IMG/VR virus record: IMGVR_UViG_3300020160_003718
Span: 1-54,673 of that record
DNA: 54,673 bases
Reading direction: 5' to 3' (one strand)
Source: a virus
Below the pieces are notes generated by a model. The model was given only the letters and a program-made list of their open reading frames with translations. It was not told the DNA's origin and did no database searches. Positions 47,601-53,965 of the stretch are shown in pieces. A program made the position numbers and the translations under genes. Each line of letters starts with the position of its first letter. Positions within the stretch are counted from its first letter, which is position 1.

Positions 47601-48607
47601 AAGAAAAACCGCTCTATTTGAGCGCATCAAAAATCAAAACATTTACCTCATGCTCATGGCAGTATTTCGCATCGTATAATTTAAAAATTCCACAAAGTGG
47701 CAATAGTGGAGCCTCAAGGGGGACAGTTGTTCATAACTTGTTTGAACTTATCGCAAAGCCAAAGCACAATCATTATATCAAAAAAATATGGCTGGCGGGC
47801 AGTCCCGAAAAAATTCCAGCAATTAAAAAGTTTCTTGAAAAACAGTTCTCGTATGAGAAGTTGAATAAGTCTGAAGAAGTAAAGCCCATCAAAGTTAAAT
47901 ATGGCGTTAAAAATAATTGGGAGAGCGTGTGCGAAATGGTGATGGTCACGCTTAAATTTGAATTTATTGACACCAGTAATCATAAGGTAATTCATTCGGA
48001 GTATGAATTTGACATAGTGAACGATAGCCCGAAATACGCAGTTAGAGGTTTTATCGACAGGCTCTCTGAAGAGAATGATGGAAAAACCCTTAAAATCCTA
48101 GACTATAAAAGCTCTTCAAAGAAATTCAAAGGAGAAGACGAAGATTCAAATATTCAAGCAATGATTTATTCATTAGTTGCTAGAAAAATTTGGAAAAATT
48201 ATGATCAGTACAAGGCTAGTTTTTTCTTCATGAGATTTCCAGAGGATCCATATCAACATAGCGAATTCTCAGAAAACGAATTGGATGGACTTGAGCATTA
48301 TTTAGAATATATCACAGATATTCTTAAAAATTTAAATGAAGAAACCGCTAAAAACAATATGGCTTCAAAAGATAGAGAGAAGTCCTGGCTTTGCGGAAGG
48401 GGAAAATGGGTCTGTCCATATAGGGATAAATTAAAATTCTTTAAAATTAAAGATCCAACCAAGGAAGGAAAAGACTCGGAAATATCCTCGCATTTAAAAA
48501 AAGAAGACGCGGAAGAAAAAATCAAAAAAAATAAAAACTGGATTATCGAAGAAGCCTATTACGATGGATGCCCATCGTTCAAAGCCAACGACTCATTCTT
48601 CCCTTGA
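47585..48607 (+). CDS. RecB/Cas4-like PD-(D/E)XK nuclease
   Basis: The protein has 340 residues. The motifs are SASKIKTFTSCSWQYF (Cys23), RGTVVHNLFE (His50), VRGFIDRL (Asp158), KILDYKSS (Asp173 and Lys175) and NIQAMIYSL (QxxxY). This is the order of RecB, AddB and Cas4-type nucleases. C-terminal cysteines (WLCGRGKWVCPYRD) could, with Cys23, form part of an iron-sulphur cluster as in Cas4/AddB, though only some of the four ligands are visible. It is likely a 5' or single-strand exonuclease acting in replication or recombination. No CRISPR array or other cas gene is nearby, so an adaptation role is unlikely. Confidence 0.78.
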   Translation: MEEQLEEKPLYLSASKIKTFTSCSWQYFASYNLKIPQSGNSGASRGTVVHNLFELIAKPKHNHYIKKIWLAGSPEKIPAIKKFLEKQFSYEKLNKSEEVKPIKVKYGVKNNWESVCEMVMVTLKFEFIDTSNHKVIHSEYEFDIVNDSPKYAVRGFIDRLSEENDGKTLKILDYKSSSKKFKGEDEDSNIQAMIYSLVARKIWKNYDQYKASFFFMRFPEDPYQHSEFSENELDGLEHYLEYITDILKNLNEETAKNNMASKDREKSWLCGRGKWVCPYRDKLKFFKIKDPTKEGKDSEISSHLKKEDAEEKIKKNKNWIIEEAYYDGCPSFKANDSFFP

Positions 48608-48641
48608 AAAGGTATTAAAAAAAATATATTGTTACCATACG

Positions 48642-49400
48642 ATGATTATTCCAGCTTTCAAGTCTCACTATTCTCTAAATAAGAGCATACTCACTTTAGA
48701 AAAAGATCATGGCGCTTCTGGTCCAAAGTCAATTTTAAAATTGATAAAGGATCATAGTCTAGAAAACTCTTTTCTTATTGAAGACAATATGAGTAGCTTT
48801 TTAGAGGCTTATTACAACTCTAAAGATTGCGGTGTTAAATTAAACTTTGGACTAAGGTTGACTTTTTGTGCCGATATAGACGATAAAAGTGAAGCTTCTA
48901 TAAAAACTGAATCAAAATATATAATTTTTTTAACCGAGTCGGGCGGGTACGAGGCTTTAAGCAAAATTTTTTCCATAGCGGCGTCTCGCGGCTTTTATTA
49001 CTTGCCAAGAATGGATTTTAAAACCCTCAAGCAGGAATGGAATGACTCGCTAGATATCGGCGTTCCATTTTATGACAGTTTTCTTTTCAATAATCATATG
49101 AAAATGTACAACTGTCTTCCTCCTGATTTTTGGAGCTGTCCAACATTTTTTTGGGAAGATAATTCAACGCCTTTCGACAAAATTTATAAATCGGCTCTGT
49201 CAAAACATATGGATAAAAATTATCCAGAGTGCGAGTTGATTAGAACCCAATCTATTTACTATGAAATGAAAGACGATTTTCTTGCCTATTTGACAATGAG
49301 ATGCATTGGTAAAAAATCAACATTGCAAAAACCCAATCTGGACCATATGTGTAGTGATGAATTTTGTTTGGAATCTTATCTTGAAAAAATTGAGGAATAA
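48642..49400 (+). CDS. Stand-alone PHP domain of DNA polymerase III alpha
   Basis: I use the ATG at 48642, giving 252 residues. Upstream frame would overlap the nuclease gene. IIPAFKSHYSLNKSILTLEK followed by DHGASGPKSILKLIKDHSL matches the start of DnaE-type PHP domains. YIIFLTESGGYEALSKIFSI is the LLAxNxxGYxNLxKL segment. The HxH metal ligands at the very start are replaced (IPAFKSH), so metal-dependent activity is probably lost. Normally this domain is fused to the polymerase; here it is two genes upstream of it and is likely a structural partner of the polymerase. Confidence 0.75.
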   Translation: MIIPAFKSHYSLNKSILTLEKDHGASGPKSILKLIKDHSLENSFLIEDNMSSFLEAYYNSKDCGVKLNFGLRLTFCADIDDKSEASIKTESKYIIFLTESGGYEALSKIFSIAASRGFYYLPRMDFKTLKQEWNDSLDIGVPFYDSFLFNNHMKMYNCLPPDFWSCPTFFWEDNSTPFDKIYKSALSKHMDKNYPECELIRTQSIYYEMKDDFLAYLTMRCIGKKSTLQKPNLDHMCSDEFCLESYLEKIEE

Positions 49401-49402
49401 AA

Positions 49403-50053
49403 ATGGAAGAAAATCTTATTAGATTCAACAAGAAGGTAAAACTTCTTTTTATTGACTTTGAAACTGCAAATCTATGCCTTAATTATAGATTTAATTTGCC
49501 GTGGCAAATGGCTTTAATAAATACCGTTGGCGGAGAACCAGTTGACGCAGGAAAAGATATTCTTATTAATTGGGGCGATGATTTTAAATTTTCTAAAGGT
49601 GCCGAAGCAATGGCTTATTCCTACTCTCAAGAGAGGATGGACAAGGAAGGGCTTAAACCAATAGATGCTCTAAAAATTTTATCTGAAAATTTAAATAATT
49701 GCGATGGAATTGTTGGTCATAACATTCTTGGCTTTGATATTTATTTAATTAAATGCATGTACAATAAACTTGGAAGACCGTATCCGGATATTCTTTCAAA
49801 GAAGCCAATATTTGATACTTTCGCTATGGCTAAAGGCTATTTTAACAATATACCATATCAAAAAGGGAATGATTTTGCTTTTTATCAATACAAAGTATTA
49901 AATCAAATCATTAAAGGATCAAAAAACTCACTATCAAAGGTTGCATCTAATTTCAACATAGCTTATGATGAATCAAAGCTGCACGATGCACTTTACGATC
50001 TTCATCTAAACGTGCAAGTCTGGAATAAATTAAAGTTTCAAGTAGATATTTAA
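49403..50053 (+). CDS. DnaQ-like 3'-5' proofreading exonuclease
   Basis: The 216-residue protein has the DEDDh motifs: LFIDFETAN (Asp18, Glu20), GHNILGFDIY (Asp112) and HDALYDLH (His194 with Asp199). It is the expected epsilon-like proofreader for the DnaE-type polymerase. It lies between the PHP gene (2 bases upstream) and the polymerase gene (3 bases downstream), so the order PHP, exonuclease, polymerase echoes the domain order of PolC enzymes, in which the exonuclease sits inside the PHP domain. Confidence 0.87.
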   Translation: MEENLIRFNKKVKLLFIDFETANLCLNYRFNLPWQMALINTVGGEPVDAGKDILINWGDDFKFSKGAEAMAYSYSQERMDKEGLKPIDALKILSENLNNCDGIVGHNILGFDIYLIKCMYNKLGRPYPDILSKKPIFDTFAMAKGYFNNIPYQKGNDFAFYQYKVLNQIIKGSKNSLSKVASNFNIAYDESKLHDALYDLHLNVQVWNKLKFQVDI

Positions 50054-50056
50054 ATT

Positions 50057-51844
50057 ATGTTTTTAGAAAAATTCAAACCAATTACCTTGCCGTTGCATGG
50101 CGTAAGATGTCCATCAATCACCCTTGACCCAAGAGACAGGGTAGAATATGGAATTAAAAATGATGCTACAAACCTTGAAATTTTGCAAACATTATGCAAT
50201 CAAGGATTTAAGAAAATGCTCCCCGCTTGGAAGGAGCAGGGCGGTAATATAGAAGAGTACAAAAGCCGAGTCAAATTTGAAGTTGAAACACTGTCAAAAT
50301 TAGATTTTGTTGACTATATATTGATTATATGGGACGTATTTAATTTTTGTAACAAGAACAATATTCCAACTGGACTTGGAAGAGGAAGTGCGGCGGGAAG
50401 TCTTGTATTGTATCTACTTGGGGTAACAGGAATTGATCCAGTTAAATATGGTTTATTTTTTCAAAGATTTGTTTCGGAGGTTAGGGCTAAAAAGCAAATT
50501 GTTGACGGCGTAACTTACCTAGATGGCAAAATGATTGCCGATATCGATAGCGACATTTGCTATTATCGACGCAAAGAGGTGGTGAAGTATTTGGAAGAAA
50601 AGTATCCAAACAGAACTTCCAAAATGTTGACGGTATCGACCTTATCTGGAAAGGCTCTTATCAAAGATGCTGGTAAAATTATCGGAGAAAAAGAAGAAAC
50701 CGAGATGAATAAAATAACATCTCTCTTTACATCTAAATATGGCAAAGTTGCAGAGCCAGAAGAAATGTATGAAACAAGTGAAGAGTTTAAAGATTGGTGC
50801 GATGAAAATAAATTAATTTATGATACCGCTCTAAAACTAAAAAACCTTATTAGGAATAAGGGCGTTCACGCTTCTGGAATTGTTGTCAGCTATGAAGATT
50901 TAAATAAAACAACACCAACCGAACTTACAGCAGACAAAGAAACCGTTTCATCTTTTACGATGGATTGGGCGACAAAGATTAATATCAAGCTAGATTTGCT
51001 TGGCTTGAAAAGCGTCTCTGTCATTCATGAAGTGTCCAAGTTGGTTGGGGTTGATTATAAAAGTATCGACTTGGAAAGTTATGAAAATATTTACGCGCAC
51101 CTTCAGGAGCTTAAAAATCCTAAAGGATTGTTTCAAATTGAAGCTGATACTAATTACAAAGTTTGTAAAAAAGTTCAGCCCAAAAATTTGGACCAGCTTA
51201 GCGCTGTTGTAGCGCTGGCAAGACCCGGGGCCTTAGCGTTTGTGGATCAGTATGCGGCATATGCTCAAACCGGCGTTTTTCCAGAGAATGGGGAGCAAAT
51301 TGACGCAATTTTAAAGGAAACGGGCGGGGCGGTTCTTTATCAGGAAAGCTTGATGGCTATCGGTCATAAGGTTTTTGGCTTAACGCTTTCCGAAGCAGAA
51401 GTTTTAAGGAAAATAGTTGGCAAAAAGAAATCAGATGAAATGCCCGAGTGGGAGAGCAAAATTTACGACAAAGCGAAAGAACTTGGAATCTCCAAAGAGA
51501 TTGCTGATTTTTACTGGAATGCTCTTAGCGACAGTGCAAATTATTCTTTTTGCAAGTGCCTTTCTCCAGAGACGATTGTTCAGAAAACGGGCGGTGAATA
51601 TATTCCAATGATAGATGCAAAAATTGGAGATAAAATATTTTCATTTAATCCGGACACGAATCAAACAGAAGAAGCCGAAATATTAGACATTATGCTCTCA
51701 GAGGCGGAAATGTTCGAATTCGAGATGGAAGATGGCAGACTAATCACATGCTCTATGGATCATAAGTTTATGTGTGAAGATAAAAAGATGAGAAAAATTT
51801 CAGAAATTTTATCGAACAATCACAAGATTGTGTGTATAGAATAG
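50057..51844 (+). CDS. dnaE: DnaE-type DNA polymerase, N-extein fused to N-intein half
   Basis: The protein has 595 residues. Residues 1-500 are the polymerase part just after the PHP domain: GLGRGSAAGSLVLYLLG at about 106-122, acidic triad ADIDSDI (Asp162, Asp164), IKLDLLGLKSVSV with the third catalytic Asp, and IVGKKKSDEM. The extein ends SANYSFCK. Residue 501 is the intein Cys1; 501-595 are the N-terminal splicing half (CLSPETIVQ, block A; ITCSMDHKFMC, block B), ending KIVCIE and a stop. The rest of the polymerase is in the 52685 gene. Active enzyme requires protein trans-splicing. Confidence 0.92.
   Translation: MFLEKFKPITLPLHGVRCPSITLDPRDRVEYGIKNDATNLEILQTLCNQGFKKMLPAWKEQGGNIEEYKSRVKFEVETLSKLDFVDYILIIWDVFNFCNKNNIPTGLGRGSAAGSLVLYLLGVTGIDPVKYGLFFQRFVSEVRAKKQIVDGVTYLDGKMIADIDSDICYYRRKEVVKYLEEKYPNRTSKMLTVSTLSGKALIKDAGKIIGEKEETEMNKITSLFTSKYGKVAEPEEMYETSEEFKDWCDENKLIYDTALKLKNLIRNKGVHASGIVVSYEDLNKTTPTELTADKETVSSFTMDWATKINIKLDLLGLKSVSVIHEVSKLVGVDYKSIDLESYENIYAHLQELKNPKGLFQIEADTNYKVCKKVQPKNLDQLSAVVALARPGALAFVDQYAAYAQTGVFPENGEQIDAILKETGGAVLYQESLMAIGHKVFGLTLSEAEVLRKIVGKKKSDEMPEWESKIYDKAKELGISKEIADFYWNALSDSANYSFCKCLSPETIVQKTGGEYIPMIDAKIGDKIFSFNPDTNQTEEAEILDIMLSEAEMFEFEMEDGRLITCSMDHKFMCEDKKMRKISEILSNNHKIVCIE
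51557..51841 (+). other. N-terminal half of a split intein
   Basis: This covers 95 residues starting with Cys1 directly after the DnaE residues YSFCK. Block A is CLSPETIVQK, with AKIGDKIFSF following, and block B is RLITCSMDHKFMC with the conserved Thr and His. It ends at a stop codon one base before the homing endonuclease ATG, so splicing must occur in trans. Confidence 0.92.
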
Positions 51845-51845
51845 C

Positions 51846-52784
51846 ATGAGCTTATTAAAACTAGATTCACACTATCTCATACCAAAGAGCAATTTCAAAA
51901 TCTGCCTAATTGACAATAAAACAGATAAAGACATCATATCTATATATAATAAAAGGTCAGACGGCCCATACTACTTAGATAAATTTTGTAAGTATATCGA
52001 AAAATTTCATAATATTTCTATTATCGAGTATTGTGAAAAATATTTAAATATAAAATGGCCTAAATGCCCAAGCAAAAATACAAAAGTAGGATTCAGATGC
52101 AGGGGGAACGGCTTAATTTTAAGCATTTATTCAAGAGGGGGGGTGAATAAATCCACTTGTGAAAACTTTAAAAAAGGGTGTGAAAAGTTGTCGAAAGATA
52201 GAATTGGTAACAAAAATCCAATGCACGGCAAAAAACCCTGGAATCTCGGAAGATCTTATGAGAGCCCAAAGATGAAAGGTAGAAAGCTTTCCGCCGAACA
52301 TATAAATAAATTAAAACAAGCAAGAGCAAATAGTCCAATCAAAGCAAGGCATACTCAAAAACACTCCGAAGAAACAAAGCAAATATTAAAAATAAGACAA
52401 GCTGAAAAATGGAAAAATGGCGTTTTCAATAGAAAAACCTCAATAGAGTTCAAGGTAGAAGAGTTTTTAAAAGAAATTAATTTATCAGGCGATTTTAAAT
52501 TCCAGGAGCAGGTTGAGTACTTTACGCTTGACTTTGGTGACAATAAGCGTAAAATAGGAATAGAGTGTCAGGGGACGTTTTTTCATGTTGATCCTAGATT
52601 TTATCCAGATGGAGCAGTCTACCCAATTCAAAAAAGAAACCTGAGCAGGGATACAAGCAAAAGAAAATTTTTTAAAAAATTAAAATGGACAATAATAGAA
52701 TTGTGGGAAACGGAGATAAACAACGGGAGCTTCAAGGAAATACTAATGTCAAAATTGTTGGAATTAGGAGTTCTAGAAGCCTAG
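51846..52784 (+). CDS. Free-standing homing endonuclease (NUMOD3 plus Vsr-like EDxHD)
   Basis: The protein has 312 residues. An N-terminal cysteine-containing region is followed by NUMOD3-type DNA-binding repeats (RIGNKNPMHGKKPWNLG at about 119-135, LSAEHINKLKQAR, HSEETKQILKIRQAEKWKNG). The nuclease is Vsr-like, with Glu201, Asp229 (FTLDFG), IGIECQGTFFHVDPRF (Glu240, His247) and RDTSKRKFFKKLKWTIIELW (Asp269). This is the EDxHD family, known from free-standing genes between split-intein halves. It would cut intein-less dnaE alleles and spread the element. It starts one base after the N-half stop and overlaps the C-half gene by 100 bases in another frame. Confidence 0.85.
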   Translation: MSLLKLDSHYLIPKSNFKICLIDNKTDKDIISIYNKRSDGPYYLDKFCKYIEKFHNISIIEYCEKYLNIKWPKCPSKNTKVGFRCRGNGLILSIYSRGGVNKSTCENFKKGCEKLSKDRIGNKNPMHGKKPWNLGRSYESPKMKGRKLSAEHINKLKQARANSPIKARHTQKHSEETKQILKIRQAEKWKNGVFNRKTSIEFKVEEFLKEINLSGDFKFQEQVEYFTLDFGDNKRKIGIECQGTFFHVDPRFYPDGAVYPIQKRNLSRDTSKRKFFKKLKWTIIELWETEINNGSFKEILMSKLLELGVLEA

Positions 52785-52861
52785 GCATTAAAAAAAGTAT
52801 AGATTTTGAAGTAAAAAATAGATTTCATAATTTTTTTGCTGAGGGTATGGTCACATCCAAT
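52685..52861 (+). other. C-terminal half of a split intein
   Basis: This covers up to 59 residues; the recognisable part runs from about residue 21 (VKIVGIRSSRSLGIKKSIDF, then block F). It ends TSN before Ser. The penultimate residue is Ser rather than His, as in the cyanobacterial DnaE split intein. All residues needed for Cys1/Asn/Ser+1 splicing are present. Confidence 0.88.
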
Positions 52862-53965
52862 AGTCATGCCTTTTCCTATTCAGCAATGGCGGCTTTGACA
52901 ATTTATTTTAAATTCAACCACTCTAAAGAATTCTTTTTAGCTTTGCTTAGAATGGCTAAGAACGAACAAGATAGTCTTGGTGAAATTAGTACAATTAGTC
53001 AAGAAATGAAACATTTTGGAATCAAATTGCTTCCACCAGATTTGGCTAAAAGCCAAGAGGACTTTGAAATTGAGGGCAATAATATTAGATACGGACTGTC
53101 TGCCATTAAAGGCATTAGCAAAAAAGTAATTGAAAAAATGATCAATTTTAGAGGAGTTTATAATTCTAAAATAGATTTATTTGTTGCGGCAAAACAGGCA
53201 AAAATTTCTATTGGGGTTCTTTCTGCTCTAATACAAGCTGGCGCATTGGAAAGTTTAAATACCAAAACTCGTAGCCGATTAGTTTTAGAAGCTCAAACAT
53301 GGAATATCCTAAAAGATAAGGAAAAAATTCTAGTTAAACAACTAATTGAGCAAAATAAGTTCGAAGACGTGCTGACGGCTATCAAAGCCTTAAATACAGA
53401 AATCAAGGATGATAAAGGGAAATTGATTATTAAAGATTCAAGATTCTCCACCATCAAAAGGGATTATGAAAGATTTAAAACTATTTATTTGTTGAATAGT
53501 CGAAATGAGAATTTAGCAAATTTCTTTTACGAGAAGGAATTGCTTGGAATGCCATACAGCCAAAGCCTTAGTAAAATTTTTCAACAAAAAAATGAAAATA
53601 TTCAAAGCATTGAGCAATGCAACAATGCAAAAGAAAAAAGCTCTTTGTTTTTTGCTGGAATAGTTACCGATGTAACAAAAAGAACATCTAAAAATGGCAA
53701 TCCATATGTGAAATACGAACTATCCGATGAAGGTGGCAAAATAGAATGCTTTGTTTTCAGTAGCGAAAAAAGGGACAAGCTGGAGGAGGTAAAACAGAAT
53801 AATGCTGGAAAACTTCCCGAAGAAGGCGACGTGCTTATAGTTAAAGCGAATAAGAAAGATGGCAATGCCTGTTATGCTGAAAAAATAGGGATACAAAGTG
53901 CTAAAATATATATGGCTCTAAGAGATCTAAAAGATCAAGATTTAATTGAAGAAGAAGTGGTCTAA
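52685..53965 (+). CDS. dnaE: DnaE-type DNA polymerase, C-intein half fused to C-extein
   Basis: The protein has 426 residues. Residues 1-59 are the C-intein half, ending FEVKNRFHNFFAEGMVTSN (blocks F and G, terminal Asn59). Residue 60 is the +1 Ser of the extein: SHAFSYSAMAALTIYFKFNH, the continuation of the DnaE YxFxKSHAxxY motif. The polymerase then continues with LLPPDLAKSQEDF, YGLSAIKGISKKVIEKM (helix-hairpin-helix), and a C-terminal OB-fold (FFAGIVTDVTKRTSKNGNPY). The first 20 or so residues come from the overlap with the endonuclease gene, and the true start is uncertain because no ribosome-binding site precedes 52685. Joined exteins total 867 residues. Confidence 0.9.
   Translation: MDNNRIVGNGDKQRELQGNTNVKIVGIRSSRSLGIKKSIDFEVKNRFHNFFAEGMVTSNSHAFSYSAMAALTIYFKFNHSKEFFLALLRMAKNEQDSLGEISTISQEMKHFGIKLLPPDLAKSQEDFEIEGNNIRYGLSAIKGISKKVIEKMINFRGVYNSKIDLFVAAKQAKISIGVLSALIQAGALESLNTKTRSRLVLEAQTWNILKDKEKILVKQLIEQNKFEDVLTAIKALNTEIKDDKGKLIIKDSRFSTIKRDYERFKTIYLLNSRNENLANFFYEKELLGMPYSQSLSKIFQQKNENIQSIEQCNNAKEKSSLFFAGIVTDVTKRTSKNGNPYVKYELSDEGGKIECFVFSSEKRDKLEEVKQNNAGKLPEEGDVLIVKANKKDGNACYAEKIGIQSAKIYMALRDLKDQDLIEEEVV

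Follow-up and report, generated by a model that had tools for sequence, protein, structure and literature searches.

How a phage replicative polymerase gene comes to be broken in two around a nuclease gene, and whether such a break may later be undone, are the questions raised by the dnaE locus of the IMG/VR virus record IMGVR_UViG_3300020160_003718, which we have analysed over its whole length of 54,673 bp (the window). By its predicted anatomy this locus is a fractured gene, an already known kind, and very probably consists of a dnaE interrupted by a class-1 split intein with its own homing endonuclease gene between the halves. The main value lies in the series of alleles found at the same site in related loci. 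The intein halves (IntN, N-terminal; IntC, C-terminal), the parts of the polymerase which flank them (exteins) and the intervening gene are arranged as follows:

50057-51556, plus strand: N-extein, the DnaE catalytic core, ending ...SANYSFCK (Pfam DNA_pol3_alpha, E 4e-58, and finger domain, E 3e-27; phrog_405, E 6e-117)
51227-51556, plus strand: mosaic (putative co-conversion) tract of about 110 codons abutting the 5' side of the intein (46% identity to the relative L003, against 98% in the remaining gene)
51557-51844, plus strand: IntN, 95 aa starting with Cys1, plus its stop codon (profile, PDB homology, alignment and fold model)
51846-52784, plus strand: predicted free-standing EDxHD (Vsr-like) homing endonuclease gene with a NUMOD3 motif, 312 aa (weak profile matches, structure model, ratio of nonsynonymous to synonymous substitution rates, dN/dS, of 0.055)
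52685-53965, plus strand: third open reading frame (ORF), IntC plus C-extein, overlapping the 3' end of the endonuclease gene, its true start codon uncertain (ORF call, alignment of relatives)
52748-52861, plus strand: IntC core, about 38 aa, ending ...AEGMVTSN (aligns with the IntC of 40 other loci, with the Asp and His of block F and the SN of block G conserved in all)
52862-53965, plus strand: C-extein, the remaining DnaE (HhH, OB-fold), starting Ser-His (HHH_6, E 3e-19; phrog_405, E 6e-35)

The first ORF (50057-51844, 595 aa) comprises the NTPase and finger domains of the DNA polymerase III alpha subunit followed by IntN, the Cys1 codon being 51557-51559 and the stop codon 51842-51844. Excision of positions 51557-52861 brings ...SANYSFCK in frame with SHAFSYS..., the insertion point being F-x-K|S-H of DnaE. 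The original prediction had placed Cys1 at 51557, the end of the C-intein half (TSN) at 52861 and the restart of the polymerase at Ser, and these coordinates and the in-frame junction are confirmed. Its interpretation as a fractured gene also withstood all sequence and structure tests, made on the DnaE extein, the IntN and IntC blocks, the EDxHD endonuclease and the uninterrupted alleles: an enzyme ORF is broken by IntN and resumed after IntC, an endonuclease gene lies between, and uninterrupted homologues exist.

Is the interrupting sequence indeed an intein? IntN scores weakly against general profiles (TIGR01445, E 0.001; Pfam Intein_splicing, E 0.006), and it matches the solved cyanobacterial DnaE inteins at E ~1e-5 (9e-6, phmmer against the PDB). 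Using iterated searches, in which loci were accepted where IntN, IntC and both exteins match, we have found about 40 distinct loci with relatives of this intein at the identical DnaE site. The splicing blocks, which should be missing or unalignable were the prediction wrong, do align: the block B His, the block F Asp and His, the terminal SN and the +1 Ser are present in 41 of the 41 aligned core loci, with Cys at residue 1 in 34 loci and Ser there in the other 7. All residues that mark a class-1 split intein are represented: Cys or Ser at position 1, His in block B, Asp in block F, Asn at the C-terminal end and a nucleophile at +1. The joined fold was modelled with AlphaFold2 on a contiguous relative (L061), with the split halves supplied as alignment, and evidences the Hint fold expected of such an intein, with a predicted local distance difference test score (pLDDT) of 95; the best Foldseek matches in the PDB are gp41-1 (E 4e-10, template modelling score, TM, 0.86) and NpuDnaE (E 3e-9). 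Comparison of the window with its relative L002 by the Nei-Gojobori method gives dN/dS of 0.058 for IntN, 0.055 for the endonuclease gene and 0.027 for IntC, the latter resting on few codons, and indicates that all three are under purifying selection. A chance origin is excluded, since homologous loci recur at the same DnaE site, the splice residues are conserved in 41 of them and dN/dS remains within 0.03-0.06.

It may be argued that the halves operate as non-covalent subunits without any splicing, IntN and IntC being mere association domains. Non-covalent assembly is tolerated in the polymerases of these phages, which are split elsewhere without inteins (the separate PHP gene of the window, and a palm/finger break in L015 and L018 and apparently in L030), but association alone needs none of the catalytic splice residues, which are kept in 41/41 loci down to the C-terminal Asn and Ser+1, and we consider this explanation improbable. 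Joining of the exons in RNA, by a group I or II intron containing the endonuclease ORF, had been named as an outcome that would overturn the prediction. EDxHD endonucleases do occur in phage introns as well, but a scan of the window yields no Rfam match at the gathering threshold and so no sign of a group I or II intron RNA; the N-side ORF continues for 95 codons past the junction, under purifying selection and with homology to the Hint fold; the relatives L026, L050 and L061 encode IntN and IntC in one frame, with no space for an intron; and Cys1/Ser1, SN and Ser+1 are conserved. RNA joining is thus without support and most improbable, and a split intein acting on the protein is the reading which we retain.

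The nature of the gene between the halves, proposed to be a free-standing EDxHD/NUMOD3 endonuclease, is supported by profile and structure matches. The 312-aa product gives weak NUMOD3 and Vsr-like matches (E ~1e-3), and neither a PDB relative by sequence nor a PHROG match was found. Its model (pLDDT 86) places residues 196-312 close to I-Bth0305I (Z 13.3) and to Vsr (Z 12.2), and the D...E...H-x-D pattern is recognized in 21 sequences, D229, E240 and G243 being invariant and H247 present in at least 90%; the window protein therefore combines a Vsr-like nuclease fold with the EDxHD pattern. EDxHD is listed among the homing endonuclease families (PMC6083498). Over 22 loci, the more two endonucleases differ the more their inteins do (Mantel r 0.84, 0/2000 permutations), as expected if both travel together.

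Evidence for such travel comes from the uninterrupted dnaE alleles of related phages, the search for which retrieved ten contigs. Scanning viral contigs with the N-side ORF gave 12 relatives (L002-L013), two of which have the same three-ORF arrangement as the window, L002 (96%) and L004 (71%). The other ten are uninterrupted: L003, L005-L011 and L013 have a single ORF of 856-866 aa, and so does L012, whose 5' end is lost at the contig end. At the unoccupied junction the close clade has ...SAGYQFNL|SHS..., and L013 has ...SANYSFNK|SHS.... The spliced polymerase of the window and the empty L003 are 98% identical outside the ~110-codon tract 5' of the insertion and 46% within it, whereas identity to the occupied L004 is 66% outside the tract and rises to 74% within it. 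At the nucleotide level, identity to L003 is 47-73% in the tract, which ends exactly at the intein insertion point, and climbs back to 90-100% over the first ~30 bp on the 3' side. Outside the tract the window and L002 are nested in the empty clade beside L003 (support 100/99); inside it, a clade of these three is rejected (approximately unbiased test, p 2.5e-63) and one joining the window and L002 with the empty set to the exclusion of L004 is disfavoured (p 0.0145). In the simplest reading, the ancestor of the window and L002 would have taken the intein, the endonuclease gene and ~330 bp of 5' flank from an L004-like donor, the tract being a putative homing footprint left by asymmetric co-conversion, with a presumed cause for the asymmetry. 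The reverse, in which intein and flank are ancestral and the empty clade gained a different, intein-free and perhaps resistant tract, agrees with both tract types being about equally distant from the outgroup L013 (55% and 50%); it is nevertheless unlikely, as the nested position of the window and L002 would require several independent replacements by the same tract type, and the tract stops exactly where the intein is inserted.

Taken as a homing split intein, the locus would function as follows. The polymerase core-IntN and IntC-C-extein precursors would associate and the intein halves fold together, after which trans-splicing from Cys1 to Ser+1 would join the exteins into a single polymerase chain. 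The EDxHD endonuclease, made separately, would cut the intein-free dnaE alleles of co-infecting relatives, and repair on the occupied copy would carry IntN, endonuclease gene and IntC across as a unit along with adjoining sequence. For the window lineage, conversion would have spanned ~330 bp 5' of the insertion but no more than a few codons 3' of it.

A number of observations weigh against this interpretation. All sequences are metagenomic contigs, and the locus is known from DNA sequence and models. The catalytic pattern of the endonuclease is conserved and its activity is a prediction, the relative L017 having Asn at the motif His, and the tract could in principle reflect recombination without an endonuclease. 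Also, at the position where relatives begin their IntC, the window and L002 lack a standard start codon: no nearer start is available because the codon aligned with the GTG start of L004 is GTC in the window. Translation of IntC would start at ATG 52685 or GTG 52700, adding an N-terminal extension, and the start codon is therefore uncertain; from ATG 52685 the ORF overlaps the endonuclease gene by 100 nt (52685-52784) in a different frame, and this overlap is 94% identical between the window and L002, more than the surrounding regions. The window being a single metagenomic contig, one may also suspect a decayed or chimeric locus (sequencing or assembly artefact, or pseudogene), but the same arrangement is independently found in L002, L004 and further divergent contigs and dN/dS is ~0.05, so that this suspicion is hardly credible.

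Having established what interrupts the window dnaE, we consider how the split state arises and is maintained, on the basis of a tree from 131 intein columns of the 41 core loci, which is unrooted and has many weak deep branches. L037 and L038, contigs binned with bacterial metagenome-assembled genomes, are taken as phage sequence. Split inteins with an EDxHD gene account for 22 of the 41 loci. Another six (L031, L068, L069, L074, L075, L080) are split with LAGLIDADG-like genes, checked by Pfam in L031, L068 and L069 and recognized by resemblance in L074, L075 and L080, the last being truncated. NUMOD4-HNH is fused in frame to IntN in two (L062, L063), the EDxHD gene is truncated in one (L058), four are split without an endonuclease (L023, L025, L038, L060) and six are contiguous (L026, L036, L050, L061, L081, L085). 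These states are intermixed on the best tree, with at least 14 changes overall, 6 of them between split and contiguous, counts which on an unrooted tree do not alone give a direction. In the NUMOD4-HNH loci (L062:6016-6831, L063:6016-6837) IntC still has an ORF to itself; these loci are intermediate between an embedded endonuclease and a free-standing one. Ser at intein residue 1 (L031, L036, L068, L074, L075, L080, L081) is confined to the branch with LAGLIDADG-like genes and two contiguous copies.

The loss of the endonuclease can be followed in several of these loci. L057 and L058 are ~94% identical in nucleotides around the locus, and L058 is devoid of one 674-bp block, and with it of the IntN stop codon and two thirds of its endonuclease gene. 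Remains of the endonuclease C-terminus, no longer in frame, are found 5' of the IntC start in L038 (LELWEKEINNKQFEEIL, HMM E 8e-7), L023 (ISDGTFKEDL) and L025; base-composition shuffles, scored as best of several references, did as well in 0/1000, 0/1000 and 6/1000 cases, respectively, the L025 figure being for this reason only suggestive. A scar was sought in L060 and not found (311/1000 shuffles as good), nor was one present upstream of IntC in the contiguous L050 and L061. Two candidates were discarded: a +1-frame 'LQKLN' similarity in L026 and L050, because the endonuclease gene end overlaps IntC and IntC homology alone yields it, and a further L026 segment (17/1000), in no convincing register.

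The contiguous L061 and the fractured L053 share almost identical inteins (IntN 259/270 nt, IntC 108/108 nt, 96-100% DNA identity), whereas their exteins 100-300 bp away match at 153/200 and 126/200 nt (~63-77%), which shows that the intein was transferred with only ~30-60 bp of flank. Compared with L053, the stretch that begins with the IntN stop codon and ends with the IntC start codon is absent from L061. L061 is nested among fractured loci on the tree and the endonuclease-IntC overlap is common to distant fractured loci, and for these reasons loss of the endonuclease with in-frame fusion, that is, a healed split intein, appears a better explanation than a new insertion. Some doubt is left by two additional substitutions at the join and by possible recombination with a contiguous donor. 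Since one dnaE site displays empty, fractured with endonuclease, truncated or scarred, and contiguous states by in-frame loss, we think it probable that in this intein family the resident endonuclease gene both creates and maintains the split, and that the split can be reversed, unrelated nuclease families having taken over the same slot.

The locus lies in a phage replication block, in the order PDDEXK (47585), PHP (48564), DnaQ-like exonuclease (49403), core-IntN, endonuclease and IntC-C-extein (to 53965), two of the neighbours being parts of the polymerase machinery:

48564-49400, plus strand: PHP-domain part of DNA polymerase III alpha as a separate gene (Pfam PHP, E 6e-6; aligns with the N-terminal portion of pol III alpha models)
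49403-50053, plus strand: DnaQ-like proofreading exonuclease gene, located after the PHP gene and before the polymerase core (Pfam RNase_T, E 3e-7; phrog_192, DNA polymerase exonuclease subunit, E 8e-20)

The PHP domain being a gene of its own (48564-49400), the catalytic subunit of the polymerase is spread over three genes. The window also encodes a tape-measure protein, ribonucleotide reductase genes, a UvsX-like recombinase, a DnaB-like helicase and a Toprim primase-like gene. Wherever L002-L011 cover this region they keep the order PHP gene, DnaQ-like exonuclease, polymerase core, and L013 keeps it with an additional ORF. Another polymerase lineage (L015:1037-5884, L018:860-4390, L030:4982-5782, L031:5422-6315) has exonuclease, HNH or other genes nearby, and its alpha subunit is broken once more, between the palm and finger domains (L015, L018), apparently without an intein there. 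Further upstream, L030:1696-2885 has another IntN-like match (1696-1917) and what may be an IntC-like end (2733-2885, ...LTVSNSH), suggesting a further fractured gene on this contig. L033, L034 and L035 carry a more distantly related IntN at this DnaE motif; next come an ORF of 515 aa that has no clear endonuclease match and an IntC-like end, HKN|S.

The origin of split inteins has been explained by a break in a mini-intein (reviewed in PMC7765530) and, according to PMC11766414, citing Dassa, by endonuclease invasion of a contiguous intein; it has so far been argued from isolated end states. Here, one dnaE site in related phages presents the intermediates side by side (empty alleles, a homing footprint, loss scars and a near-identical split/contiguous pair), and the pathway becomes testable with natural alleles, including the matched inteins of L053 and L061, which are also useful for protein engineering. 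If the split is reversible, split inteins without an endonuclease gene, such as those of cyanobacterial DnaE, could be relics of fractured loci and not simple breaks of mini-inteins. The literature searched, with most subscription papers outside its reach, gave no account of such a series at one site, including scars and a re-fused copy, and the novelty of the series is provisional. In a phage collection, the IntN relatives stand mainly under ribonucleotide reductase or helicase records and none under dnaE, and dnaE matches end at or near the junction.

Comparison with known systems sets these results in context. The closest fold to the joined family intein (TM 0.86) is that of the gp41-1 split intein (PDB 6QAZ), which has the same split position and a phage origin; it differs in its host gene, the gp41 helicase, and has 33% identity. 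The Npu and Ssp DnaE split inteins (PDB 4KL5, 1ZD7) share the host protein family, the fold (Foldseek E 3e-9), the split position and the penultimate Ser, in addition to the IntN sequence homology (E ~1e-5), but their halves are far apart in the genome, without an endonuclease gene, and they use Cys+1. Their site, which precedes C-F-N-K, four residues upstream, does not coincide with the window insertion after F-x-K and before S-H. For the endonuclease, the best structural matches of the C-terminal domain are the EDxHD homing endonuclease I-Bth0305I (PDB 3R3P) and E. coli Vsr, the N-terminal 195 residues with NUMOD3 being outside both matches. Finally, the fractured genes reportedly described by Dassa et al. 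in 2009 are said to comprise eight conserved phage enzymes, each interrupted by a split intein whose halves flank a free-standing endonuclease gene, often of the EDxHD (Vsr-like) type. The class is also known from two citing papers (PMC11766414, PMC7090010). The window locus is alike in that a phage enzyme is split by intein halves around a free-standing endonuclease gene; it differs in that the gene is dnaE and that its site has empty alleles, a conversion tract, and endonuclease-deleted, re-fused and endonuclease-swapped relatives.
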